A stretch of DNA of 64,000 nt, from assembly GCA_029263415.1 (NCBI GenBank), contig JAJCXN010000038.1, forward strand, positions 62,001-126,000. Reading direction: 5' to 3'. Below the pieces are notes generated by a model, which was not told where the DNA came from, did no database searches, and saw only the letters and a program-made list of their open reading frames with translations. Of this stretch, positions 4,304-17,500 are shown one piece after another. The DNA is from Acidobacteriota bacterium. GTDB taxonomy: Bacteria > Acidobacteriota > Thermoanaerobaculia > Multivoradales > Multivoraceae. The position numbers and the translations under genes were made by a program. Numbering within the stretch: position 1 is the stretch's first letter; every line of letters begins with the position of its first letter.

Positions 4304-6733
4304 CTAAGGCCTCAGCAAGCTCGCGGCCGCTGGCAGTGTACTGATCGAAGCCAGCAAACAAAGGGGCAATCCAATCAGCATGACCAAGGCCATGGTTTCC
4401 AGACCAGGGTGGTTGGTGAACAGCAGGATTGTAAAACTCGCGCAGGTCGTTGCTGTGGTCATCAGAATCGCTCGACCAACAGCGCCGGTGGCAACTGCGA
4501 GTGGCTCGCGTGCTTCGCGCATGCGATGGACCACATGAATCCCATCGTCCACGCCTAGGCCAACGAGCAACGGCACAACCATCACCGTCATCACGTTAAA
4601 GTTCAGCGGCAGCCAGCAAAGAACGCCAAAGGTCACGGTGCTTGCGACCATCACCGGGAGTAACGCCAGCACCATCCAACGGCCACTCCGTAGGTCAACC
4701 AGCAGGACCAAGATCACAAAAGCCATGACTCCAAGGCCCACCTTCCACACCCATGGTCTGGGCCCTAAGAGCACCGCTTCAAGCAAGACGCTGACACTCG
4801 TCGCCTCAGGAGCAACCGCCTGCACAGCGAGCCGCGCTTCCCGGACACGGTGAGCATCGAACGTTGATTCCTTAGCGTAGGCGTATACGAGCCAGGGCGC
4901 GTCGGTTGCAGCAGCACTGCTCGAGAGTGCATCGTCGGCTTTGGTGCCACGGAACTGAAGCCTGAGTCCCAGCGGCAAAGTCGCTTCGGTGGGCGGTCCT
5001 TGCTCGATCCCACGATCGAGAGCCTGGGCCACACTGAGAAGCTGCGTCAGACGGTCGTCCGCTCCTAGGAAACCAATCCCTGCACTCAGCGGAGCAAGAG
5101 CCTGGTGAAGCGCTGGGTGCAACTCCGCGAGCACCCGTTGTCGCCGCTCGGCCTCGAGCGGGTCGATCGAGAGCAAGTCGGAGGGAGACGCTACCGTCGC
5201 TATCGCTTCTTCCGAGCGCAGCAGCACTGCAACCTCTGCGGCCTCTTCAAGCGACTCGACGGCTATCACCCACGGCGCTCCGCTCACGCCAAAACGCTCC
5301 CTCACCTCGTTCACCGTACGCACTGCCGGCACATCTCGATTAAATACCTTCTCCATGCGGGACTCGAGCGCGAAACGCGGTACACCGAGCAGGGCGCCGA
5401 AGAGCAATGCTAGAGCTAAGCCTAGGTGGACCCAAGGCCTCTTAACCGCGTGCTCTGCGATCCGCTGTGGGATCACCACGAGCCCCAACTGGGGTCGAGT
5501 GCTGCTCGACGGGGGAGCGCCGTCGGATCTGCTCTCCCCCTCGACACGTCCACCCTCTACACGTCGCCACGCAACTGGTACCAGGACCAGCATCAAGACC
5601 AAGCAAAACGTGAGCCCAATACCTCCCGACAGCCCAAGGTGAACCGCGACTGGATCCGGTGCTGTGGCGACGATCAAGAATGCGCCCGCAGTGGTCACTG
5701 CACCTGCGATGACGCCGCGACCTGTTCCGCCGAGCGCTCGTTCGAGTGCCTCACTCAAGGACAATCCGCTCGCTCGCTCCTCTTTGAGTCTCAGCAGTAG
5801 ATGAATGGCGAAGTCGATGCCGAGCCCAAAGACAGTCACCCCAAAGAAGGTTTCCATCAAGGTCAAGCCCCCGGCCAACAACCCGATCACTCCCAGAGTC
5901 GCAGCCACCGCCAGCAGGAGCGCTACCAAGATGGCCAACAAGACCCTCCATCGCCGCTCAACAGCGAACACCAATAACAAGACTGCGAGCAGACTCAGCG
6001 GTGACAGGCGGCGCACGGTATCCAACGTCTTGCCCTGGTCCTGAGCGGCCACGGCTGGAAAGCCGGAGAGGTCATACTCGACATCGCTACCGGCCAATGC
6101 AGTTGCGATCAACGGCTCAAGTTCAAAGTAGCTGTTGCCGCCAAACGACTGCACCAGCGGGTCGCTGCGCAGTCGCACTTGAATCACGCGATCCCCGTGG
6201 TCCTGGATCGGGCCCGCCGCCTCCTCGAGCAAGGCCTCGAGGACTGCCATCCGTGACTCGATCTGGCTCGGCCCTTCCCCATTCGCGGCTGCGGGCCCTA
6301 GCGACAGTAGTTCACGCAGGCTCCCAACCAAAGAGTCGAACTCGTCCTCAGGAGCGAGCCAAAACAACTGCTCAACGAACCAATCACGCGCAAGAGGCAC
6401 GATGACGCCCGCAACGGCAGGGTGATCACCCAAAGCGGCGTCTAGTTTCTGGGCGGCAGCGCTGAGCGCAACGTCCCGCGCGGCGGGCTCTAGGCTCGGG
6501 TCTGCGCGCACCACAACAATCAATGTGCCGCCGAACCCGAGTGACTCGCTCTTCTCCAAATAGCGCGCCACTTCCGGTTGGGAACGATCCAAGACTCCAG
6601 CGAAAGTCAGGTCGATCGGTGCACGCAGGGCCATCACTCCTAACAGCAAGCCTGGAATCAAGACCGCTGACATTAGTAGTTTTGGGCGCGAATCGACCAA
6701 ACGGGCGAGGTGTAGAAGCTGACGAGTGAGCAT
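4304..6733 (-). CDS. RND superfamily (MMPL-type) exporter
   Basis: 809 residues with the duplicated plan of MMPL/SSD transporters: one N-terminal membrane helix, a large periplasmic loop, a five-helix bundle, then the same pattern again. Each half carries the acidic proton-relay helix, GLGIDFAIHLLLRLKE (about residue 305) and GLGVDDGIHVVHRMRE (about residue 735). Proteins of this class move lipids, hopanoids or other hydrophobic molecules out of the inner membrane; the substrate here is unknown. It converges on the FecR-like gene with 56 bp between them and diverges from the TonB receptor. The ATG at 6733 has no clear ribosome site. Confidence 0.9.
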   Translation of the reverse strand: MLTRQLLHLARLVDSRPKLLMSAVLIPGLLLGVMALRAPIDLTFAGVLDRSQPEVARYLEKSESLGFGGTLIVVVRADPSLEPAARDVALSAAAQKLDAALGDHPAVAGVIVPLARDWFVEQLFWLAPEDEFDSLVGSLRELLSLGPAAANGEGPSQIESRMAVLEALLEEAAGPIQDHGDRVIQVRLRSDPLVQSFGGNSYFELEPLIATALAGSDVEYDLSGFPAVAAQDQGKTLDTVRRLSPLSLLAVLLLVFAVERRWRVLLAILVALLLAVAATLGVIGLLAGGLTLMETFFGVTVFGLGIDFAIHLLLRLKEERASGLSLSEALERALGGTGRGVIAGAVTTAGAFLIVATAPDPVAVHLGLSGGIGLTFCLVLMLVLVPVAWRRVEGGRVEGESRSDGAPPSSSTRPQLGLVVIPQRIAEHAVKRPWVHLGLALALLFGALLGVPRFALESRMEKVFNRDVPAVRTVNEVRERFGVSGAPWVIAVESLEEAAEVAVLLRSEEAIATVASPSDLLSIDPLEAERRQRVLAELHPALHQALAPLSAGIGFLGADDRLTQLLSVAQALDRGIEQGPPTEATLPLGLRLQFRGTKADDALSSSAAATDAPWLVYAYAKESTFDAHRVREARLAVQAVAPEATSVSVLLEAVLLGPRPWVWKVGLGVMAFVILVLLVDLRSGRWMVLALLPVMVASTVTFGVLCWLPLNFNVMTVMVVPLLVGLGVDDGIHVVHRMREAREPLAVATGAVGRAILMTTATTCASFTILLFTNHPGLETMALVMLIGLPLCLLASISTLPAAASLLRP

Positions 6734-6995
6734 TTTCTAAAGCGATGTCCTTAGGTCATCTATAAGGCACAGCGGATGCTACAAGCAGTCGCGCACCAAA
6801 CCCACCTAAACAAAGGCAGTTACATGGCCGCCCCCCGCGAACCTCGCGCTCTGTTTCACTCGACGCCCGCTATCGAAGTGTTATGCTAAAAGTTGCACCC
6901 AAATCGAAACAGATTCGGGCCGAGACCCCCTGAGCAACCTCTCCAACACAACCACACGGCGCCGATGTCTCACGGTTCCGTATCGAGGACACCCA

Positions 6996-9566
6996 ATGCA
7001 ATCCACACGAGGCGTCTCAAGAGCGACGCTGACTATCCTTCTAGCGCTCACCGTAGCTTTGCTGCTCCCCGTAGCAGCCTTAGCCCAGGAAGCCGACGCA
7101 CCTGCCGAAGACGAGCAATTCGAGGAAGTGATCGTTGTCACCGGTACTCGCACCGAAGGCCGCACAATCACCGAATCGATGGTCCCAATCGATGTCATCT
7201 CGGCCGCCGAGTTCGCCAATCAGGGCGAGACCGACGTCAGCAGCCTGCTCCGCAACCTGGCACCGTCGTACAACGTCAACAGCCAGCCAATCAGTGACGC
7301 TGCGACCATCGTCCGGCCGGCCAACCTGCGCAACCTCGCGCCTGACCACACTCTAGTGCTGGTCAACGGCAAGCGACGCCATCGCGCGGCCGTCATCTAC
7401 TGGCTAGGCAACGGCGTTGCAGACGGCGCTCAAGGGCCTGATCTATCTACCATTCCAGCGATCGCGCTACGCCAGGTGGAAGTTCTTCGTGACGGTGCAT
7501 CCGCTCAGTACGGCTCAGACGCCATCGCCGGCGTTATGAACTTCATCTTGAAGGACGCGCGCTCGGGTGGCTCGGTTGAAGTCCGCGCCGGTTCCTTCGC
7601 CGAAGGCGATGGCGATGCCTCGTCCGTAGCGGCCAACCTCGGTCTCCCTTTGGGTGCCGCCGGCTTCTTCAATATCAGTGTCGAAGCATCCAACTCCGAC
7701 CCAACCAGCCGCAGTGTCCAGCGTGACGATGCCGCCGGTTTGATCGCAGCCGGCAACACCAACGTACGCGACCCTGCTCAGATCTGGGGTTCGCCCGAGA
7801 TCGAAGACGACATCAAGCTCTGGATCAACTTTGGCTCCCCTCTGGGTGAGAACAGCCTGAACCAGTTCTACGGTCACGCCAACTACGCCAACAAAACCGT
7901 CACCGGTGGCTTCTACTTCCGTAACCCCAACACTCGTGGTTCAGTGTTCAGCGGCGACGGAGGCGACACCCTCTTGATCGGCGACTTGCTTGACGCGGCA
8001 GACGGCATCAACGACGGTTCCGCGGGCTGCCCAACGGTCTCGGTCACCAACAATGTGCCTGATCCGACAGCCTTGGGTGCGGTTCTCTCCAACCCGAACT
8101 GCTTCACCTTTCAGGAACTGTTCCCCGGCGGCTTCACCCCGAACTTCGGCGGCGAATCCACCGACTCAGGACTCGTCTTGGGCTTCCGTGGAGTTACCGA
8201 CGCAGGCATGACTTGGGATGCGAGCATCAGCAACGGTGAGAACGAGGTCGACTTCTTCATCAACAACACGGTCAACGCATCGCTGGGACGGGCCACCCCG
8301 ACCTCGTTCGACCCTGGCGCGTACACTCAACGCGAGCTGAGCCTTAACTTCGATGTGGGCTACGCGCTCAATGAGATGACACACATTGCAGGTGGCATTG
8401 AGTGGCGTGACGAGGAGTTCGAGATTGGCATCGGCCAACTTGAGTCCTACCAGATCGGTCCTTTAGCAGCGCAAGGCTTCAGTGCCGCTTCGAATGGCTT
8501 TCCGGGCTTTGGCCCGATCGCCGCAGGCAAGTGGAACCGTAGCAACTTTGCACTCTATGGCGACCTTGAACTCGGCGACCCCGACGGCGCTTGGACCCTC
8601 GGCGCAGCAGTTCGCTACGAGGACTTCGAGGACTTCGGCAGCACCATCAACAGCAAGCTCGCTGGTCGTCTGCGCTTGACCGATGACTTCCAGCTCCGTG
8701 CGAGCTTGAGCAGTGGTTTCAGGGCACCGACACCGGGTCAGTCAAACGCATTCAATGTGTCGACTGAGTTCGACCTCGAGCTGATGGACCTGGTTAACAA
8801 CGGCACCATCCCTTCAAGCTCAGCAGTCGCGAAGTTGCGCGGTGGCGAAGCGTTGAAGCCTGAGCAGTCGATCAACTTCGCGTTGGGTGCGGTCTATGAG
8901 AACGGTCCCTTCACCCTGACGGCTGATTACTTCAACATCGAACTCACTGATCGTCTGGCAGTCACGCAAAACTTCTCGCTGCTGCCCAGCGAGGTTGATG
9001 CGCTGATCGCTGAAGGTGTCACTAGCGCCGGCAACCTACAGAACTTCCGGTTCTTCACCAACGACTTCGATACCGAGACCAGCGGCATCGACTTGGTCAT
9101 GACCTTCGTTCCTGAAGGCCTCGGTGGCAACACCATCTTCAGCTTGTTGGCCAACCACACCGAGACCGATGTCATCCAGTTCAACCCGGCAACGCTCGAC
9201 GCGACTCGCATCCGTGAGCTGCAAGAAGCACTGCCAGAGAACCGGGCAAACTTCTCGATCACCCATCACTTCGGAGCCCTCCGAGTGCTGGGCCGGGCGA
9301 GCTACTACGACAGCTGGTTCGATTCCGAGGACGGCGCTGTTTACAGTGGCAAGACACTGTTTGATCTTGAGGTGGCATACGACTTCAACGGTGGTTTGTC
9401 ATTCATCGTCGGTGGCCAGAACGTGCTCGACGAAACCCCAGACGAGAACCAAGGTGCTCGCGCTGGTGTCGGCAACCTCTACAGCCAGTTCTCGCCGTTC
9501 GGCTTCAACGGTGCGTACTACTACGCACGACTGAAGTACAACTTCGACCTGGCCTGGGGCAAGTAG
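6996..9566 (+). CDS. TonB-dependent outer-membrane receptor
   Basis: 856 residues: signal peptide (about 1-30, cleavage near ALAQ-EA), a TonB box-like EEVIVVTGTR (about 43-52), plug domain (about 60-180, with VLVNGKRRHR, LSTIPAIALRQVEVLRDGAS and GSDAIAGVMNFILK) and a 22-strand barrel ending in an aromatic-rich terminus (YARLKYNFDLAWGK). It imports a scarce ligand such as a siderophore, vitamin or oligosaccharide using TonB energy. It lacks an N-terminal STN domain, so it cannot signal directly to the nearby FecR-like protein by the classical route. The start is supported by GAGG seven bases upstream. A strong terminator follows the gene. Confidence 0.95.
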   Translation: MQSTRGVSRATLTILLALTVALLLPVAALAQEADAPAEDEQFEEVIVVTGTRTEGRTITESMVPIDVISAAEFANQGETDVSSLLRNLAPSYNVNSQPISDAATIVRPANLRNLAPDHTLVLVNGKRRHRAAVIYWLGNGVADGAQGPDLSTIPAIALRQVEVLRDGASAQYGSDAIAGVMNFILKDARSGGSVEVRAGSFAEGDGDASSVAANLGLPLGAAGFFNISVEASNSDPTSRSVQRDDAAGLIAAGNTNVRDPAQIWGSPEIEDDIKLWINFGSPLGENSLNQFYGHANYANKTVTGGFYFRNPNTRGSVFSGDGGDTLLIGDLLDAADGINDGSAGCPTVSVTNNVPDPTALGAVLSNPNCFTFQELFPGGFTPNFGGESTDSGLVLGFRGVTDAGMTWDASISNGENEVDFFINNTVNASLGRATPTSFDPGAYTQRELSLNFDVGYALNEMTHIAGGIEWRDEEFEIGIGQLESYQIGPLAAQGFSAASNGFPGFGPIAAGKWNRSNFALYGDLELGDPDGAWTLGAAVRYEDFEDFGSTINSKLAGRLRLTDDFQLRASLSSGFRAPTPGQSNAFNVSTEFDLELMDLVNNGTIPSSSAVAKLRGGEALKPEQSINFALGAVYENGPFTLTADYFNIELTDRLAVTQNFSLLPSEVDALIAEGVTSAGNLQNFRFFTNDFDTETSGIDLVMTFVPEGLGGNTIFSLLANHTETDVIQFNPATLDATRIRELQEALPENRANFSITHHFGALRVLGRASYYDSWFDSEDGAVYSGKTLFDLEVAYDFNGGLSFIVGGQNVLDETPDENQGARAGVGNLYSQFSPFGFNGAYYYARLKYNFDLAWGK

Positions 9567-9607
9567 GCTTTAGCGCCATCGCCGCCTCCACTATGGAGGC
9601 CTAGGGA

Positions 9608-9650
9608 AACGGCTCCTCAGCGTCTTCGGACGCAATGAGGGGCCGTTTTT
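9608..9650 (+). terminator. Rho-independent terminator after TonB receptor
   Basis: The stem is ACGGC-T-CCTCA-GCGTC paired with GACGC-AA-TGAGG-G-GCCGT around a TTCG tetraloop, followed by TTTTT. A smaller hairpin (GCCTCC-ACTAT-GGAGGC, 9584-9600) sits just before it. It closes the TonB receptor transcript. Confidence 0.85.
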
Positions 9651-10078
9651 CGTTTGGAGGGAGGGAATGGATCGGCCGCCGATCCGTTCCGAACATCTGA
9701 TCTGCGATAGGCCTCGTGCCCGGACCGGTCGTTCGTTCCATAGACCGAGGGAGGCAGTTGCGACTCCGTAGCGCGACGACTTTTGGACATAGCGGCTCCA
9801 ATCGATGCTCTGTTCGGGTCAGGCCACAACTCCGCTACCGTTCACTCGCCGTGGAGTGCGAGCAATGACAGACTGGTGATCGGGTCTCCGGAACCAACGT
9901 CGGAATTCGACTGTCGGTGCTCGGCTGTCGGTGCTCGGCTGCCCGGGCCCGCCCATCCCGATCGACGCGCGCGATTCAAGAGAGAAGAAACTCCGCTTCC
10001 TGCGTCGAAAACCGGGGTGATCATTCGACGTCTCGGTGCAGAACACATCAACTGATCGATTCACAGGAGGCCTGTCAT
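9651..10078. other. Intergenic region without supported gene
   Basis: No coding frame here has homology that I recognise. The one feature seen is a 14-bp tandem repeat at 9911-9938 (annotated separately). The final bases carry the strong AGGAGG ribosome site of the DUF6265 gene. Confidence 0.6.
9911..9938. repeat. 14-bp tandem duplication
   Basis: CTGTCGGTGCTCGG occurs twice head to tail (9911-9924 and 9925-9938), then a degenerate third start, CTGCCCGG. It lies about 140 bp upstream of the DUF6265 gene. Confidence 0.8.
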
Positions 10079-10660
10079 ATGCTCACGCGCACCCCAGCAA
10101 TCCAAGCTCAACATAGGAACGAGCGACGCACCGACCGGTACATTCGGACCGCTCTGTTCGTCGGCATCGTGCTTTTCCTCGCCCTACCTGCTGGCGCAGA
10201 AGAACCCGGGGCTTCGAACGCAGCCGACGCCACGGCCACTCTCGAGACGGCACACAAGCACCTGGAATGGCTGGTGGGTTCGTGGGTCGGCACGGGGCTC
10301 GGAGGAGACGTCGAAGAAAGTTGGCTTCCGGCCAAAGGCGGTCAGATGATGGGGCTCTTCCGGATGGTCGTCGACGGCGAGATTCGTTTCTCGGAACACA
10401 TGGCTATCGGCAGCTTCGACCACGAAGGCACGCAGAGAATCGAACTACGACTCAAGCACTTTGACAACCAGTTGCATGGCTGGGAGACCAAAGAGCAGGT
10501 GGTCTCTTTCCCATTCAAGCACTCCGAACCCGGCCACGTTACCTTCGGCGGTCTCGAGTTCATCCAAGAGAGCGCTACTGCAATGCGCATCGAACTCAAG
10601 ATGCGTGGCAAAGACGGTGTCCGCACTGAAGTTTTCAAGTTCGAGCGAACGAGTCACTAA
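10079..10660 (+). CDS. Exported DUF6265-like protein
   Basis: 193 residues from an ATG preceded by AGGAGG at good spacing. The frame extends further upstream, but only this start gives a ribosome site and a signal peptide. A signal peptide with a basic start and a hydrophobic core (FVGIVLFLALPAGA) ends near residue 40. The mature part matches the lipocalin-like DUF6265 pattern: LEWLVGSWVGTGLGG, then EESWLPAKGGQMMGLFRMV, an acidic SEHMAIG strand and LRLKHF. The function of the family is unknown; members are small periplasmic or secreted beta-barrel domains. It stands alone, between the receptor terminator and the convergent AhpD-like gene. Confidence 0.8.
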   Translation: MLTRTPAIQAQHRNERRTDRYIRTALFVGIVLFLALPAGAEEPGASNAADATATLETAHKHLEWLVGSWVGTGLGGDVEESWLPAKGGQMMGLFRMVVDGEIRFSEHMAIGSFDHEGTQRIELRLKHFDNQLHGWETKEQVVSFPFKHSEPGHVTFGGLEFIQESATAMRIELKMRGKDGVRTEVFKFERTSH

Positions 10661-10823
10661 GCGACGGCCACGTAGGGGCTCGGAGTCCTTGGCAGAAATC
10701 TTGTGGCCACCATCACCGCAGTTTCAACGATGGCATTGCGACGAGACCTAAAGGAACGCGGGTCTTAGAGCCTTCGGTAGATCAGCCTCAGTCGCTACCT
10801 CCGAGCGCTTTTGGGGGCTCCGC

Positions 10824-11399
10824 TCAATGGTCGTCGCTTTCTTCGAGTTGAACCCCTAGCCCATCAGCGATGCGATTGACGTATGCGTAGTAGGCGGTGA
10901 CTTCAGCGATCTCGAGAATGTCCCGATCACTCCAGCCAACGGCTCGCAGCTCCACAACGTCGGATTCCCTCATCGCCTGAGGAGTCAACGTGAGCTTGCT
11001 CGCGTACTGCAGCATCGCGAGTCGTTGATCGGACAACAAACCCTCCCGATGAGCCCCAACAAAGTCGGCCTCAATCTTCTCGAGCAGGGTGTCATCACGC
11101 AACAATCGACGCAGCCCGCGTCGGTGGTGAGTAATTCAGTAGTGACATGCATTGAGCTGGCTGACGGTCAGAGCGATCATTTCGCGGTTGACCTTGCGCA
11201 GCGTTTTGGTGCCGGCCATCGCCGTTCGGTAGAGCTCGAGATGAGCTGCCATTCCTTCGGGGTGGAGCGAGTGAATCTTGAGAATGTTGTCGACTTCACC
11301 ACTGACGGGATCGCGACCGAGGGCGTTGAGCCGTTCAAGCTCCGCGCGCGCAGCGGCATCATCGAGTTCTTCAGGCTCCACCTCATCTATCCAAGGCAT
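10824..11399 (-). CDS. AhpD-like peroxidase-related protein, probable selenoprotein (in-frame UGA = Sec88)
   Basis: Reading through one in-frame UGA (11138-11136) gives a 191-residue protein. The first 87 residues and the last 103 each look like half of an AhpD/carboxymuconolactone-decarboxylase-fold enzyme of the peroxidase-related type. The join is REMIALTVSQLNACHY, then UGA, then ITHHRRGLRRLLRDD. In this family the catalytic CxxC followed by xxHH sits exactly there, so UGA replaces the second, resolving-type cysteine (C85-H-Y-U88). A hairpin of SECIS type starts right after the UGA. Expected role: reduction of peroxides through a thiol/selenol pair in the cytoplasm. The start ATG at 11399 has GGAG five bases upstream. 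The alternative is a nonsense mutation in a normal CxxC gene, but the intact downstream frame and the hairpin argue against it. Confidence 0.85.
11094..11138 (-). promoter_or_regulatory. Candidate bacterial SECIS element with UGA codon
   Basis: Directly after the UGA the transcript can form a lower stem AUUAC/GUGAU (11135-11131 with 11098-11094), an internal loop, and a perfect upper stem CGACGC/GCGUCG (11123-11118 with 11112-11107) closed by the loop GGGCU. The apical loop begins 18 nt after the UGA and has G in its first positions, as expected for SelB-binding bacterial SECIS hairpins, which lie inside the coding region just 3' of the Sec codon. Confidence 0.75.
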
Positions 11400-11408
11400 T
11401 GCTTCTCC

Positions 11409-11666
11409 TTAGCGCTCATCATTCGCTTGCCTTTCTGGCTCCTCAACCTTGAGATCGAAACAGTGGCTACACCGCGGATGCTCCCAGAAACCTGAGATCC
11501 GGCTCTGCCGTACCGACGGTGTCTGCTGCGTTGCCAGTTCAAATTGAGCGCACAAGCTGTAGGCCAATGCTCGGCTCACAGCCGCCTTGAGGCCCGACAA
11601 ACAAACGTGTCCAGTGTGTCGCTCACAGCCGATACTCCTTAAGCGCCGCAGAACGCGACCGACCAT
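11409..11666 (-). CDS. Possible small Cys-rich protein upstream of the selenoprotein
   Basis: An 85-codon frame ends with TAA ten bases before the ATG of the AhpD-like gene, and the TAA is followed at once by that gene's GGAG site, an arrangement typical of coupled genes. The product has five cysteines, including a C-terminal HPRCSHC motif. I do not recognise a family and there is no clear ribosome site at its ATG. It may be a real small protein or chance; the tight spacing is the main support. Confidence 0.35.
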   Translation of the reverse strand: MVGRVLRRLRSIGCERHTGHVCLSGLKAAVSRALAYSLCAQFELATQQTPSVRQSRISGFWEHPRCSHCFDLKVEEPERQANDER

Positions 11667-11808
11667 CCCATTGTAGCCAGCCGACGGATCTCGCCTTCGT
11701 CATCACGACGTCTACGCTCGCTAGAGAGTTAAGCTCACGGACCCCAAACAACGTTACCGCTCTTTGAACTTTGAGCAGGAGACCCCATGACTGTAGGCCA
11801 ACGAGACC

Positions 11809-12579
11809 ATGACCAACCCTAGCGCTGGAGCGGTCTTCAAGGATCGGCTGCAAGCCGGCGAGACGCTGTTCGGGATGTGGTGCGCAATCGACTCCAGCGC
11901 AACCGTCGAAGCCATGACGACCCTTGACATCGACTGGATCCTGATCGACTGCGAGCACGGGCTTGCCGCACCAGAGAACTGCCTACCGCTCATTCAAGCT
12001 GCTGACCGCAACGGGCGCTGCGTCTTCGTTCGGGTGCCTAGGTTAGATCCCGGTCTAATCGCGAGACTGCTCGACAGCGGCGTGCACGGCATCATGCTGC
12101 CCAAGGTTTCTACAGCCGAACGAGCCCAGGCGCTGGTCAAGGCCTGCCGCTACCCACCCGATGGCGACCGCGGGATCGGACCACACCGAGCAACCCGCTA
12201 CTACTCAGACGTAGCTGGCTACCTCGAGCGAGCCAACGACGACACTCTGATCGTTGCTCAGATTGAGGAACGCGAGGCCGTTTCCAATCTCCACGCCATC
12301 CTCGAGGTCTCAGGCATTGACGTCGCCTTCGTCGGGCCGGCCGACCTCTCGGCGTCACTCGGGCACTTCGGCAATCCGCAGCATCCTGAAGTCGAAGCGG
12401 TCGTCGCTCAGATCGCCGAGACTTGCAAGGCCCACAACGTTGGCAGCGGGTACTACTGCGGATCAGGCAAAGCTGCGGCGGCTCGCGCGGCATCTGGCTT
12501 CCAGATGGTCAACGTCGCTCAGGACTTGGGCGGCCTGGTTCATTTCGTCGGCCGTCAGCTCGATGCGGCACGGGGCTAA
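11809..12579 (+). CDS. HpcH/HpaI family aldolase
   Basis: 256 residues with the TIM-barrel signatures of the class II pyruvate aldolase family: FGMWCAIDSS (strand 1), WILIDCEHG (about 42-50), VFVRVPRLDP, the metal and phosphate region GIMLPKVSTAE (about 94-104), IVAQIEEREAV (catalytic E) and VAFVGPADLSASLGHFG. Members cleave 2-keto-3-deoxy or 4-hydroxy-2-oxo acids to pyruvate and an aldehyde using a divalent metal; the exact substrate cannot be told from sequence. It precedes the BI-1-like gene by 34 bp, so they may share a transcript. Confidence 0.92.
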   Translation: MTNPSAGAVFKDRLQAGETLFGMWCAIDSSATVEAMTTLDIDWILIDCEHGLAAPENCLPLIQAADRNGRCVFVRVPRLDPGLIARLLDSGVHGIMLPKVSTAERAQALVKACRYPPDGDRGIGPHRATRYYSDVAGYLERANDDTLIVAQIEEREAVSNLHAILEVSGIDVAFVGPADLSASLGHFGNPQHPEVEAVVAQIAETCKAHNVGSGYYCGSGKAAAARAASGFQMVNVAQDLGGLVHFVGRQLDAARG

Positions 12580-12613
12580 GGTCGTCCCCGCTCTTTCGAG
12601 TAACCTTGAACAG

Positions 12614-13309
12614 ATGAACCAGACTCTTTCCAACCACGGTGCCCCTTCCTCCTTGGCCTCACCCGAACGCGCCGCAGCGATCACCCGAGTATTCGGCACC
12701 CTGTGTCTTGCAGTTGTGTCGCTGGTCGTGATCGAAGTCATCCTCTTTCGTACCGGCACCGCCCAGAGCCTCGCGGCACGCCTAGCGGGGGTGAACTGGC
12801 TGTTCGTCTTGGGCGCCTTCATGCTCGCCGGATGGATGGCCCGCGGGCTCGCGCACCGCGTTGGCTCCCCCGCCGCCCAATGGGCAGGCCTCGCGCTCTA
12901 CATCGGAGCGCAGGCATTGATCTTGGCGCCGATGCTGGTATGGAGTGAGAACTCCGTCCCGGGCGTCATCAACGACGCTGCGCGCCTCACCGTCGCTGCA
13001 ACCATCGGACTGATGGCGGTCGCTTGGTACAGCCGGCACGACTTTACGTTCTCGCGACCATTCCTAATGTGGAGCGGTTGGATCGCGTTGGCCGCGATCG
13101 TGTTCTCACTCTTGACCGGGTTCAGGTTGGGCATCTGGTTCAGCGCGGGAATGATCCTGCTCGCCGGCGCTGGCATCTTGAACGACACCTCAAAGCTGCG
13201 CAGGCGACGTATCAGCGGGCGCGAAACAGCAACCGCTCTCGAACTGTTCGCATCGATGGCGATGCTGTTCTGGTACGTGCTGCGCTTGAGCAGACAACTG
13301 CAGCGCTAG
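12614..13309 (+). CDS. Bax-inhibitor-1-like (UPF0005) integral membrane protein
   Basis: 231 residues with about seven membrane helices. The C-terminal half has the BI-1 family pattern: AQWAGLALYIGAQALILAP, then an AGMILLAGAGILNDTSKL segment, and the closing helix with ATALELFASMAMLFWYVLRL. Family members are pH-sensitive calcium leak channels or inner-membrane stability factors. The frame is open further upstream inside the aldolase gene, but the ATG at 12614 is the first start that gives a plausible N-terminus. Confidence 0.8.
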   Translation: MNQTLSNHGAPSSLASPERAAAITRVFGTLCLAVVSLVVIEVILFRTGTAQSLAARLAGVNWLFVLGAFMLAGWMARGLAHRVGSPAAQWAGLALYIGAQALILAPMLVWSENSVPGVINDAARLTVAATIGLMAVAWYSRHDFTFSRPFLMWSGWIALAAIVFSLLTGFRLGIWFSAGMILLAGAGILNDTSKLRRRRISGRETATALELFASMAMLFWYVLRLSRQLQR

Positions 13310-13326
13310 AAAGAGAATCGCTCCAA

Positions 13327-14373
13327 CTACTTTTGTGTAAACACCGGAAGCTGCTCGCCTGCAGAGACTGCAAAGGGCAGCCGGTTCGCTGCCGGAGGGA
13401 GCGGACAGGTTGCGTAGGGAGTGAATACGCAAGGCGGGTTGTACAGGCGATTGAAGTCCGCGCGCACCAGCCCTGACTCTTGGGCTTCGACATACAAGTA
13501 GCGACCACCACCATAGGTCGTCTCCCCGCTGGTCTCATCAGCCACCATCAAGAGTTGAGGTGCTTCAGGATCAGTCCCCACAAGCTCCATCGCGAACTGC
13601 TGGCCCGCCCGTTCGAACAGAAACCGCCCAATTGAACGCTGCGGGTAGTCGAAGTCGGTGGAGTTGTCGATCGCCAGTTCACGCACTCCATCTGCCGCTT
13701 CAAAGCGACCCTCAATCACCCACTCTGGATCCACTTCAAAGGTTGGAATCTCGACCAGGCGTTCCCGCGCGGCGGACGCTCGGTTACGCACGCGAAGCGC
13801 CAATTGATCACCCCGCTTGATCGAGAACATCTCGAAAGCGCCATAGCGTAGAACCAACGGCGACTCTCCGCCCTCCACACTGAACGCTTGCCACGATTGG
13901 CCCTCAGAAGTCGCAGCCGTTGGCGCTGCGATCACCGTGACGTGCTCCTGGCCATCGGCCATCGCGCTCGACTGCTCAATGCGGGCTGCTGGCTCAAGAA
14001 CCGCAATCTCAGCAATTGCAAAGGACACTTGTTGGGGGTCCGGCTCGGCAGCGACGCGCACCAGAGCAAGCGTTTCCGGCGCATCCGCGGGTGCCTCAAT
14101 AAGCTGGACCTCGGCCGATTCGCTCCAACCAATTCTCTGTTCACCTTCACTGAGCCAATGCAAACCAACGATGGCCAACCACCCCTCTTCGGCCCGCAGC
14201 TTTGCGAGCCGCTCGGTATGCCACTTTTCCTGGGCGACCATCATGTCGATCCGAACCTGATCATCAACACGCGCTTCTTCGGATCCACATCCGATGAGAA
14301 GGCTCACAGCTGCCGCAACCGCTACAGCTGCTACAACGACCAACCCGGCCCCGACTTCTCGTGTCTGCTTCAT
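13327..14373 (-). CDS. DUF1684 lipoprotein
   Basis: 348 residues from the ATG at 14373; the frame is open upstream to 14568, but only this start puts a lipoprotein signal at the N-terminus (hydrophobic stretch, then LLIGC at about residue 28). The C-terminus carries the DUF1684 hallmark YNPPCVFTPYATCPLPP followed by NRLPFAV and AGEQ, and an RSIGRFLF core. The reaction of this family is not established. It lies downstream of the HzsA-related gene on the same strand (173 bp). Confidence 0.87.
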   Translation of the reverse strand: MKQTREVGAGLVVVAAVAVAAAVSLLIGCGSEEARVDDQVRIDMMVAQEKWHTERLAKLRAEEGWLAIVGLHWLSEGEQRIGWSESAEVQLIEAPADAPETLALVRVAAEPDPQQVSFAIAEIAVLEPAARIEQSSAMADGQEHVTVIAAPTAATSEGQSWQAFSVEGGESPLVLRYGAFEMFSIKRGDQLALRVRNRASAARERLVEIPTFEVDPEWVIEGRFEAADGVRELAIDNSTDFDYPQRSIGRFLFERAGQQFAMELVGTDPEAPQLLMVADETSGETTYGGGRYLYVEAQESGLVRADFNRLYNPPCVFTPYATCPLPPAANRLPFAVSAGEQLPVFTQK

Positions 14374-14546
14374 GTCATCCAGTCTGACACGATCGCGCTC
14401 CCGCCGCCGAAGCGCAAGACGGCGGCCCACTCGACCCCCGATGGATGCTGGCGCCTGAGGTCCGGGGCTAGGAACTTTGCTGAGTGTGTCCGTGCTGCTC
14501 GTTTCAAGGTACCCGAGCGGCCAGAGCGCAGAGATTCGAGTAACCC

Positions 14547-17500
14547 CTAAGGGCTCGACGACGACCAATTTGCAAGCCCGCCCGAGTCAAAGTCATCAGC
14601 GAACAAGGAACCCGGGAGCCCGAAAGACCGCACCACCCGCGTGATGTTGCCCTGCAGATCTGCCACCTCGAAGAACAGTTCACCAGCCGCCACATCGAGA
14701 GGCTGGGTCAACGAAAGTTCGTACACCCCGCCGCCACTGTGCACAAACAAGTCGCCGAGCTCACTTCCCGCCGACCGACCGACAAGGTCCAGATCCGCCG
14801 TCACCGAGAAGGTAGGCAGGTCCAATCCACTGTTGGCGTCCGCCATGCCGACTCGAATCACGTTGACTTCGCCTTGGTTGATGAACCGTTCCGGTGAACT
14901 CACCGTCAACGTTGGTCTGAGATCATCGAGAAACCAGCCGTGCCAAGGCTCGGTGCCGAAATCGACCGGACTACCTAGGTCGATCCAGCGCGCAATGGTC
15001 ATCTTCTCGTCACCAGTCAGGAGGGTGTGGTGTGCAGGATCGAGCGTGTCCGAGTAGTCGAGATCCGCTTCGTTTGCATTCGCCCCAGGCGGCAACGTGC
15101 TGGCAACGCCAGGGGTCGACTCGGTTGGGTGATCGCCGTTGAGCCAGCCATCCATACGGCCGCCGAACAGCTTCCACACCAACAGACTTCGCCGCGACTG
15201 GTATCGCCTGACATACCGGCTGGCATTCGTTTGTCTCCACGTTCCATTGGCTATCACCGGTGCGTATCCCCAGTCGGCGTCTGGGTCGGCGGCGAGCCGC
15301 TTGTAGTCGCCCGGAAGGCCATCGACAACGGTCGTGTCATCGAGCACCAGGTTGCCCGGAGTCGGTTGAATGGCTGCGCTGTGGCATGACACACACCTCG
15401 CTTCGAGAATCGGCCGAACGTCTCGCTTGAACTCCACGTCGACCTGGGTTGCGGCGACCACTTCGAGATCCGGGTCTTGACCAAGTAGACCGCTGGTGGC
15501 TCCTTGCGCCCAGCGCAACATGGGCGTGACCGCACCCAGGTCATAGATCGGATAGTCGGGGTCCGCCGCAGCAGTGTCTTCAAAGGCGAGTGGCGTCAAC
15601 GAGTGTGCGTGGCATCCGCCGCAATCAGTTCGCACTTCGCCTGGCCGCACCTGATGCCAGGTTTGAGCCATGTTGAGCACGGCACCTTGACGGTCGATCG
15701 TCTGAAACGTGAACGGAGTGTCCGCGGGAATCTTGGCGAGGAAACTGGTGTCGGGGTTGCCGTCTGGGTTCATGACGGTGGCACCAGTCTCGTCGACCTT
15801 GCGCAAAGGGATCTCACCTAAGATGCGATGACGCTCGTTGCCATGCTGAAAGAACCGTTGGCCATAGTTCGGCCCATAGGACCGATGCGTTGACGGCTCG
15901 AGGCCGACAATACGCACTGCCCAAATCTCAGAGTCTAGGTACTTGCCAGCATCCGACCCTTGCGTTGACCAATTGCTCGACTGTCCGTTCTGTCCAGTGT
16001 TAAAAGCGTCCAATCCGTCGAAGGTGTTGCTCCCCGAGGTCACCGATCCCGGAAAGCTCTCCCGACGATAGAAGCTAGATGTTCCGATCAATCCATAGGC
16101 CGTACCGGCGGGCAAGCGTGGATCGGCTGTGCCGTCGTTCGGCAAGAACGGCATGGAAGCCGGTTCAAGGACGCCTTGGATCGCAGCATAAGTCACCAAA
16201 GCGCGCGGCCAAGCTTCGTTGTAGGCAGGGTCGTTCTTGATCAGGATCAACTGATCGGGATCAGTCACCATGCCCGCCCCTTGCAGGGGGTTCTCGGGAT
16301 CAAGCGCTGCCAGGTTGATCAGGTATAGCCCAGCGTCATAACGCGGGTCCGGTGTCGGCCGATTCAGGTCGTTTGCGGGCCCGGGGGTCCACACCGTTAG
16401 TAGGTTGTTGTCCGGAGCCGCTGATGGGTGAGTGAACTTTCCTACCCGCGTCGAGCCATCAGTCCCAACCGGGGCTGCATTGTCCAGCCCATGAGTGAAG
16501 GGCGTGATCGAGTGCATGCCAGTCGGGGAGAAGGCGAACGAGAAGGGGTAAGAGAAGCCCCCCTCCACGGTCTGATCGATGGTCGGGTTCTGCGCAGGAT
16601 ACGGACTGTTGAAGGGACCCTGGCCCGTCGGCGGCTTGATCGGCATCCGATAAAGAGCACCGAAGCCGTTGTTGTTGAGATTGTAGTAGTCCACCACCAC
16701 CAGGCTCTCATCCGAGAGTTGGGTCATGAAGTGAAACGCCTGGGGTCCCCTGAACGCCGAGACCACCGGCTCCCAATGACGGCCATCCGGATAGATCGAC
16801 CACAGTCCCCACAACCTGCGGTCGCGAAGTCCCTGGCTCTCATAACTCGAAAAGAGCATGCGACCGTCTCGCAAAGGCGTCGGGTGCAGGTTGCTATTGA
16901 TGGTCATCGGAGTGACCAGCTCCACGTTGGATCCGTCGTGGTCCATGACGAAGATCTGCAGTACCGGACTGGTGAACGCCTGCACTGGCCAGAAGCCGTT
17001 GCGGTTGCTGGTGAACGCAATGCGACCATCGGCCAACGGACAAGCGCCTAGATTGAGGATGCCATAGCCCAACCGATGGAAGTTGCTGGGCGGATCCAGT
17101 GGATTGCTCTCGTCCCAGATCCCTGCACCAGTGTTGGGAGTGAACTCGCCGAAGGTCAACTGCTCGATCTCGCGACTCTCCACGTGCATGCGAAAGATAT
17201 TGGCGCCCTCGTAGGGCAGGTCTTGCCGCTGCGTGTTGAGCGAACCCGGCTGCAAGTTGGGAAACTGGCTGTAGTAGACCGACTCGCCGTCGAAGGAAAC
17301 GCACGGATCGGTAATCGATCCGTTGGTCTCGTCAACCAGCACTTCCTCACTGCCATCCGGATGCAACAACATGAGGTCCGCACCCGGATCTAAGCGCGCC
17401 GGATGAAACACCTCCGGCCAGGTGGTGTTGGTCAGGTCACCAAACCGCGGCTGCCTGACGTAAACGATGTCGAAGTCGACCGGGTCCTGCGCCTGCACCG

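Follow-up and report, generated by a model that had tools for sequence, protein, structure and literature searches.

Selenocysteine (Sec)-containing AhpD-like proteins with a CxxU motif were one of the selenoprotein families described from the Sargasso Sea in 2005 (COG2128, 27 sequences; PMC1088965), and 299 Sec members of AhpD-like 1 (COG2128) were reported from GOS in 2008 (PMC2398784). These two reports bear out the preliminary description of the locus presented here, which had mentioned such proteins from marine metagenome surveys. Among sequenced bacteria, two AhpD-like selenoproteins were listed in 2006, one of them in Alkaliphilus (PMC1794560), and the CxxU form has since been included in reviews under COG2128 (2022; PMC9312934) and under TIGR01926 (2026; PMC13188914). 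Because Sec forms of TIGR01926/COG2128 have been in print since 2005, a further member is not new in kind, and as the family is already known, the interest lies in its distribution and in the evolution of its selenocysteine insertion sequence (SECIS) rather than in a new mechanism. In the portions of the literature covered by our search, we found no AhpD-like protein with a GxxU motif and no report tied to the order considered below; none of the terms sought was found in PMC12013277. Among AhpD proteins, that of Mycobacterium tuberculosis has a proton relay comprising Glu118, Cys130, His132, Cys133 and His137, and PA0269, which carries Tyr in place of His132, has weak H2O2-reducing activity (PMC3141380).

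Here we describe an AhpD-like gene in a 64,000-nucleotide stretch of DNA from an Acidobacteriota bacterium (contig JAJCXN010000038.1), referred to throughout, at its full length, as the window. Judged on very strong comparative support, the gene appears to be a well-supported further member of this known Sec family.

A reading frame divided by an internal UGA

The gene lies on the minus strand (11399 to 10824), a detail added to the preliminary description, which gave no strand. It starts with an ATG at 11399-11397, extends over 191 codons and ends in a TGA stop at 10826-10824. A single internal TGA, codon 88 (11136..11138, minus strand), falls at the second position of the CHYU-xxHH site, where both the translation and homologue alignments place the proposed Sec. 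The read-through product (MPWIDEVE...NACHYUITHHRRG...ESDDH) is 191 residues long with U as residue 88, leaving 103 codons (191-88) between the internal TGA and the final stop. Hence, three points of the preliminary description stand: one in-frame UGA at the second Cys of an AhpD-like CxxC site (CHYU-ITHH), a continuation of 103 codons to a normal stop, and a gene split in two by standard annotation. Under translation table 11, the sequence is cut into open reading frames (ORFs) of 87 amino acids (11136-11399) and 93 amino acids (10824-11105, TTG start). The window was also scanned for TGA codons in a Cys- or Sec-like motif, which gave 86 candidates, the one at 11138 among them. The gene very probably encodes a small redox enzyme whose active site contains Sec, decoded from the internal UGA; Sec insertion itself is predicted from sequence. 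Gene prediction with UGA taken as a stop splits the enzyme in two, and would do so for the other 69 UGA-containing matches of the order (see below). Annotation as a selenoprotein sets this right and contributes a well-documented lineage whose peroxidase-related family occurs mainly in its selenium form.

Family membership was assessed on the read-through protein, which matched TIGR01926 over residues 33-184 (121.4 bits, cut-off 81.8). PF02627 (the Pfam CMD family) scored 44.8 bits when the gene was read through versus 20.8 for the first half alone, and a Pfam scan of the second half alone returned no match. A search of solved structures matched nine distinct sequences, and in the three alignments printed and read (3c1l, E value 8.6e-26; 2pfx; 6k40) a Cys is aligned to the UGA column. 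The same column holds Cys in three of four named plasmid homologues and Ser in the fourth, from Paracoccus; Cys in homologues at this position is what the preliminary description had called for. In Paracoccus seriniphilus, the plasmid gene with Ser at the site (CPYSLANH) adjoins a gene for a ring-hydroxylating dioxygenase. The residues of the AhpD relay map to E73, C85, Y87, U88 and H92 of the window's protein, with the Glu 12 residues before the first Cys and the His four residues on from the second position. A further His, H91, characterizes the subfamily to which the gene belongs (subfamily A, below) and is also present in the three named Cys homologues (CNYCVAHH, CEYCVEHH and CEYCIEHH). 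The confidence of a single-sequence structure model (pLDDT 43.9) was too low for the model to be used; a homologue of solved structure is available at the E value given above.

The gene's surroundings were also inspected. Seven ORFs around it (window 4304-14568) were scanned, none of which matched ahpC; they encode an MMPL exporter, a TonB receptor, a DUF6265 protein, an HpcH/HpaI aldolase, a Bax1-I protein and a DUF1684 protein, with one ORF lacking a match. None of these neighbors looks functionally tied to the selenoprotein gene. Neighborhoods were listed for 11 relatives; eight ORFs from these were scanned, and the others were judged by eye. In two genomes of one genus (G021 and G023), a gene for an M28 peptidase adjoins the selenoprotein gene on the same strand (L098 6629-8890 and L099 6686-8998), and protein kinase genes lie near the selenoprotein gene in two other relatives. 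Neither an M28 peptidase gene nor a protein kinase gene stands beside the window's gene.

Conservation of the UGA across the order and class

Searching all 72 genomes of the order returned 93 matches (counted by hand), spread over 48 genomes, 70 with a TGA and 23 without. All 70 TGA matches and eight of the 23 others were read individually, and the remaining 15 are all listed without a stop. The window's gene and its 26 best relatives (E values of 3e-34 or better) all carry the TGA, and all have the motif CxYU-xxHH. Across the 70 TGA matches, the codon sits in a CxxU context in 68 and in a GAPU context in two (L088 and L114); two matches (L026 and L049) also have a TAG in the matched stretch. 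Motif divided the 59 CxxU matches of the first batch into two subfamilies: A, with CxYU-xxHH (29 members, including the window's gene), and B, with CxYU but lacking a His ahead of the relay His (30 members). Subfamily A is defined by its UGA, and conservation of the codon is therefore judged on the 26 best relatives. A quick tree placed 28 of the 29 subfamily A sequences in one weakly supported branch (support 80) together with three Cys sequences (CAYC-xxHH), and the window's gene grouped in a clade of five (support 97). The three Cys sequences closest to subfamily A (support 83) sit on a long branch, and the tree fits both a change from Sec to Cys and one from Cys to Sec.

Matches extended to the class, where 66 of 148 genomes searched had at least one. 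All 19 that were read among 24 further class matches are CxxU; of the five unread, four have no stop and one has two TGA and one TAG. Elsewhere, a scan of viral contigs confirmed no relative, and a scan of genome contigs gave one weak locus, in Peribacillus.

Sequence constraint was compared on the two sides of the codon. Between the window's gene and seven relatives, identity was 47-66% downstream of the UGA and 44-66% upstream, and pN/pS in the seven pairs ranged from 0.43 to 0.61 downstream and from 0.35 to 0.62 upstream, with synonymous sites near saturation. Constraint is thus roughly equal in the two parts. A base-calling error is made less likely by the recurrence of this UGA in many other genomes.

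Other members of the family were encountered in these searches. The window's genome contains a second Sec member (L054 3001-3549, i.e., G000:C5:107641-108189) with the motif CHYU-TRAH, which belongs to subfamily B (TIGR01926, 149.9 bits) and has its SECIS hairpin at a different distance from the UGA than the window's gene. Further loci of the order and class (L108-L136) represent subfamilies with CEYUNRSHT, CVFURDCHG and CxYUxxSHAEFL, in which the UGA occupies the same column and the hairpins lie in registers of their own. The two GAPU matches, L088 (G025:C166, GAPU-LGLH) and L114 (G029:C470, GAPU-LALH), encode read-through proteins that are 65% identical. Both keep the Sec, have Gly for the first Cys of CxxU and carry a hairpin that satisfies the SECIS rule described below; the L114 protein scored 90.6 bits against TIGR01926 (cut-off 81.8). 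A search of the 148 class genomes returned L088 and L114 as its sole close matches.

The proposed SECIS hairpin in the window and in relatives

The preliminary description had proposed a bacterial SECIS (bSECIS) built of an outer AUUAC/GUGAU stem and an apical CGACGC/GCGUCG stem with a GGGCU loop. The apical part was supported: a hairpin CGACGC-GGGCU-GCGUCG (11107..11123, minus strand) is predicted by folding and by the published bSECIS rule, with 17 nt, six base pairs, a 5-nt loop beginning with G, and a UGA-to-loop distance of 18 nt. The rule, as stated in the part of the review consulted (PMC13188914), specifies an apical loop of 3-9 nt, a stem of 4-16 bp, a G in the first two loop positions, a distance of 16-37 nt from the UGA and an energy of -7.5 kcal/mol or lower. 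The window's hairpin satisfies each term (5 nt, 6 bp, first loop base G, 18 nt and -8.6 kcal/mol for the 17-nt hairpin alone). The outer stem is part of the predicted minimum free energy (MFE) fold (11094..11135, minus strand) but is not conserved, as it forms in none of the four closest relatives.

Stability gave a mixed picture. The MFE of the 45 nt was -14.0 kcal/mol (z -1.64), a stability matched by 13 of 200 dinucleotide shuffles; the 23-nt apical stretch reached -10.1 kcal/mol (z -2.35), matched by 5 of 200. When the 45 nt after the UGA were compared with synonymous-codon shuffles, the folding energy of the window's gene was not significant (p 0.183), and p 0.05 was reached by three of 29 subfamily A genes, none of 30 subfamily B genes and one of eight Cys homologues, perhaps because the amino acids themselves (e.g., GAGLR, DLRAEV) already encode the stem. 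Rfam searches of the window, and of 10 loci including that of the gene itself, gave no match at gathering score.

Across relatives, we applied the rule strictly (i.e., no stem mismatch allowed). A conforming hairpin followed the UGA in four of the five closest-clade genes, in 11 of the 24 other subfamily A genes and in 26 of 30 from subfamily B, versus rates at other codons of the same genes of 7.9% (of 709), 7.4% (of 3460) and 11.9% (of 4269), respectively. The exception in the closest clade is L025, the closest relative of the window's gene (66% identical), which fails because of one stem mismatch. None of eight Cys homologues of the order and none of the four named plasmid homologues (three Cys, one Ser) had such a hairpin at the site, while 28 of 30 further UGA loci did (a set that includes L088).

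Pairing is also conserved. In subfamily B, 95.6% of alignment cells paired versus 85.5% in shuffles, and the covariation score was 0.304 versus 0.144 (none of 500 shuffles as high in either case). Three pairs of the subfamily B hairpin were altered on both sides versus 2.0 in shuffles (31 of 500 as high); these changes were GC/CG (14 to 12), CG/UA (20 to 7) and one AU/UA. Among the 24 subfamily A sequences beyond the closest clade, pairing extends to 91.7% of cells versus 23-51% in slid versions, and no covariation was detected. In the closest clade of five, 96.7% pair, with one compensated pair, and the covariation was matched by 186 of 500 shuffles, which is not significant.

Synonymous codons just after the UGA are more uniform than elsewhere, with mean z scores of 3.71 versus 1.10 in subfamily A and 3.05 versus 0.67 in subfamily B (eight codons each in the hairpin; 69 and 86 elsewhere, respectively). 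For example, in subfamily A, Ala at +6 is GCG in 23 of 23 sequences, Arg at +9 is CGT in 20 of 25 and Leu at +8 is CTC in 23 of 29, while in subfamily B, Leu at +8 is CTC in 28 of 30 and Arg at +9 is CGG in 24 of 30. Single columns outside the hairpin reach z scores as high as 6.1 (subfamily A) and 9.0 (subfamily B), indicating that kinship has a share in this uniformity.

Under a broader scenario, the TIGR01926 proteins of the order are mainly Sec proteins. The paralogous subfamilies CHYU-xxHH, CHYU-TxAH, CxYU-xxSHAEFL and CxFU-xxxHGAVA would retain Sec at one column while their hairpins lie at differing distances from the codon, implying repeated gain or relocation of the SECIS under one catalytic residue, and the rare GAPU-LxLH branch (two of the 148 class genomes) would be a single-selenolate AhpD that has lost its resolving Cys. 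We put it forward tentatively, and would on balance lean against it as a whole.

Selenocysteine machinery, alternative readings and comparison with known proteins

The preliminary description had named selA, selB, selC and selD as genes whose absence would speak against a selenoprotein; all four were found in the genome to which the window belongs, a 6.89-Mb assembly of 60 contigs that is 99.2% complete. SelA scored 375.6 bits and SelB 329 bits (cut-off 242.25), and the tRNA-Sec, with a UCA anticodon, scored 71.1 bits (gathering score 47). SelD scored 249.2 bits over two stretches of a single 833-amino-acid open frame (L093 in G000:C23, 7223-9721), within which SelD is preceded by a Pyr_redox_2 (pyridine nucleotide-disulphide oxidoreductase) domain. 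By eye, this oxidoreductase-SelD fusion carries a CGGC motif; Ndh-SelD fusions with CxxC have been described (PMC2398784). In the order as a whole, SelA exceeded the cut-off in 66 of 72 genomes, and three genomes had a UGA gene and no SelA match (G024, G029 and G033, listed as 82, 70 and 69% complete). In one genus of the window's family (g3, 21 genomes), matches to the protein were weak and confined to four genomes and SelA exceeded the cut-off in 20 of 21, so that the Sec trait there presumably serves other selenoproteins.

Three other explanations of the split frame were weighed. A Cys codon (TGC or TGT) may have turned into TGA in this genome only, leaving two dead halves or a sequencing artifact, as the division of the frame under table 11 might suggest; with the UGA column common to the 26 best relatives, a CxxU context in 68 of 70 TGA matches of the order and constraint alike on both sides of the codon, we consider this scarcely credible. 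Equally hard to credit is a tandem arrangement, in which an 87-amino-acid protein ending at CHY would be followed by a separate 93-amino-acid protein, the UGA being a true stop that perhaps serves selenium-dependent regulation only. Both ORFs can indeed be listed, but the second half has no Pfam match alone, the PF02627 score rises from 20.8 bits for the first half to 44.8 when the gene is read through, and neither ORF includes the conserved His that follows the UGA (UxxxH, codon 11126-11124), as the second starts at 11105.

The UGA might also be read through in another way, by a near-cognate tRNA giving Trp or Cys or under a reassigned code, yielding a protein without selenium. The non-significant folding energy against synonymous shuffles and the weak covariation in the window's clade are compatible with this, but the genome holds a full sel set, the UGA sits at the catalytic Cys column, and hairpins occur at the right distance behind it, versus none conforming to the rule in 12 Cys/Ser homologues. 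In addition, 16 of the 29 subfamily A genes (the window's included), as well as the selB and selD frames of the genome, end in TGA, which speaks against reassignment of the codon. Decoding without selenium is thus very improbable, if slightly less so than the two preceding explanations.

We therefore favor, with high confidence, a 191-residue TIGR01926 selenoprotein with Sec at UGA 88, inserted via SelB and the hairpin, that would act as an AhpD-like thiol-redox enzyme. SelB with Sec-tRNA-Sec would recognize the hairpin, which begins 13 nt after codon 88, and the UGA would be decoded as Sec. The putative product would be all-helical, with an AhpD-like fold as in the solved homologues and a predicted redox activity. 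Cys85 and Sec88 would form the CxxU pair, as resolving thiol and selenolate, respectively, and may cycle via a selenenylsulfide, assisted by Glu73, Tyr87 and His92, which occupy the AhpD proton-relay positions. Peroxides or a related oxidized substrate would most likely be reduced by the enzyme.

Compared with described proteins, the window's protein shares with AhpD proper (TIGR00777; M. tuberculosis AhpD), as far as the published account consulted goes, the positions of the proton-relay Glu, the CxxC-type pair and the His, but has Sec at the second Cys; membership was rejected on score (19.9 bits, cut-off 191.95). The NF041238 AhpD_rel_CFYUT (seleno)protein family, also AhpD-related and given with CxxU in the part of the 2026 review consulted, was likewise rejected (42.9 bits, cut-off 175). 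The Cys forms of TIGR01926 (3c1l, 2pfx and 6k40, and those on Aminobacter, Deinococcus and Aureibacter plasmids) have the domain in common with the window's protein but carry CxxC in place of CxxU. Three of the four plasmid homologues also share its framework in the form CxYC-xxHH, with Cys for the UGA (Ser in Paracoccus), and the four lack a hairpin conforming to the rule. Closest are the known AhpD-like selenoproteins (COG2128/TIGR01926), which, in the portions of the published accounts consulted, have in common with the window's gene the family model, the CxxU motif and a predicted SECIS just after the UGA. Published members were compared by CxxU only, whereas the window's gene has CxxU-xxHH, in which another His precedes the relay His, and a SECIS sequence peculiar to its own clade.
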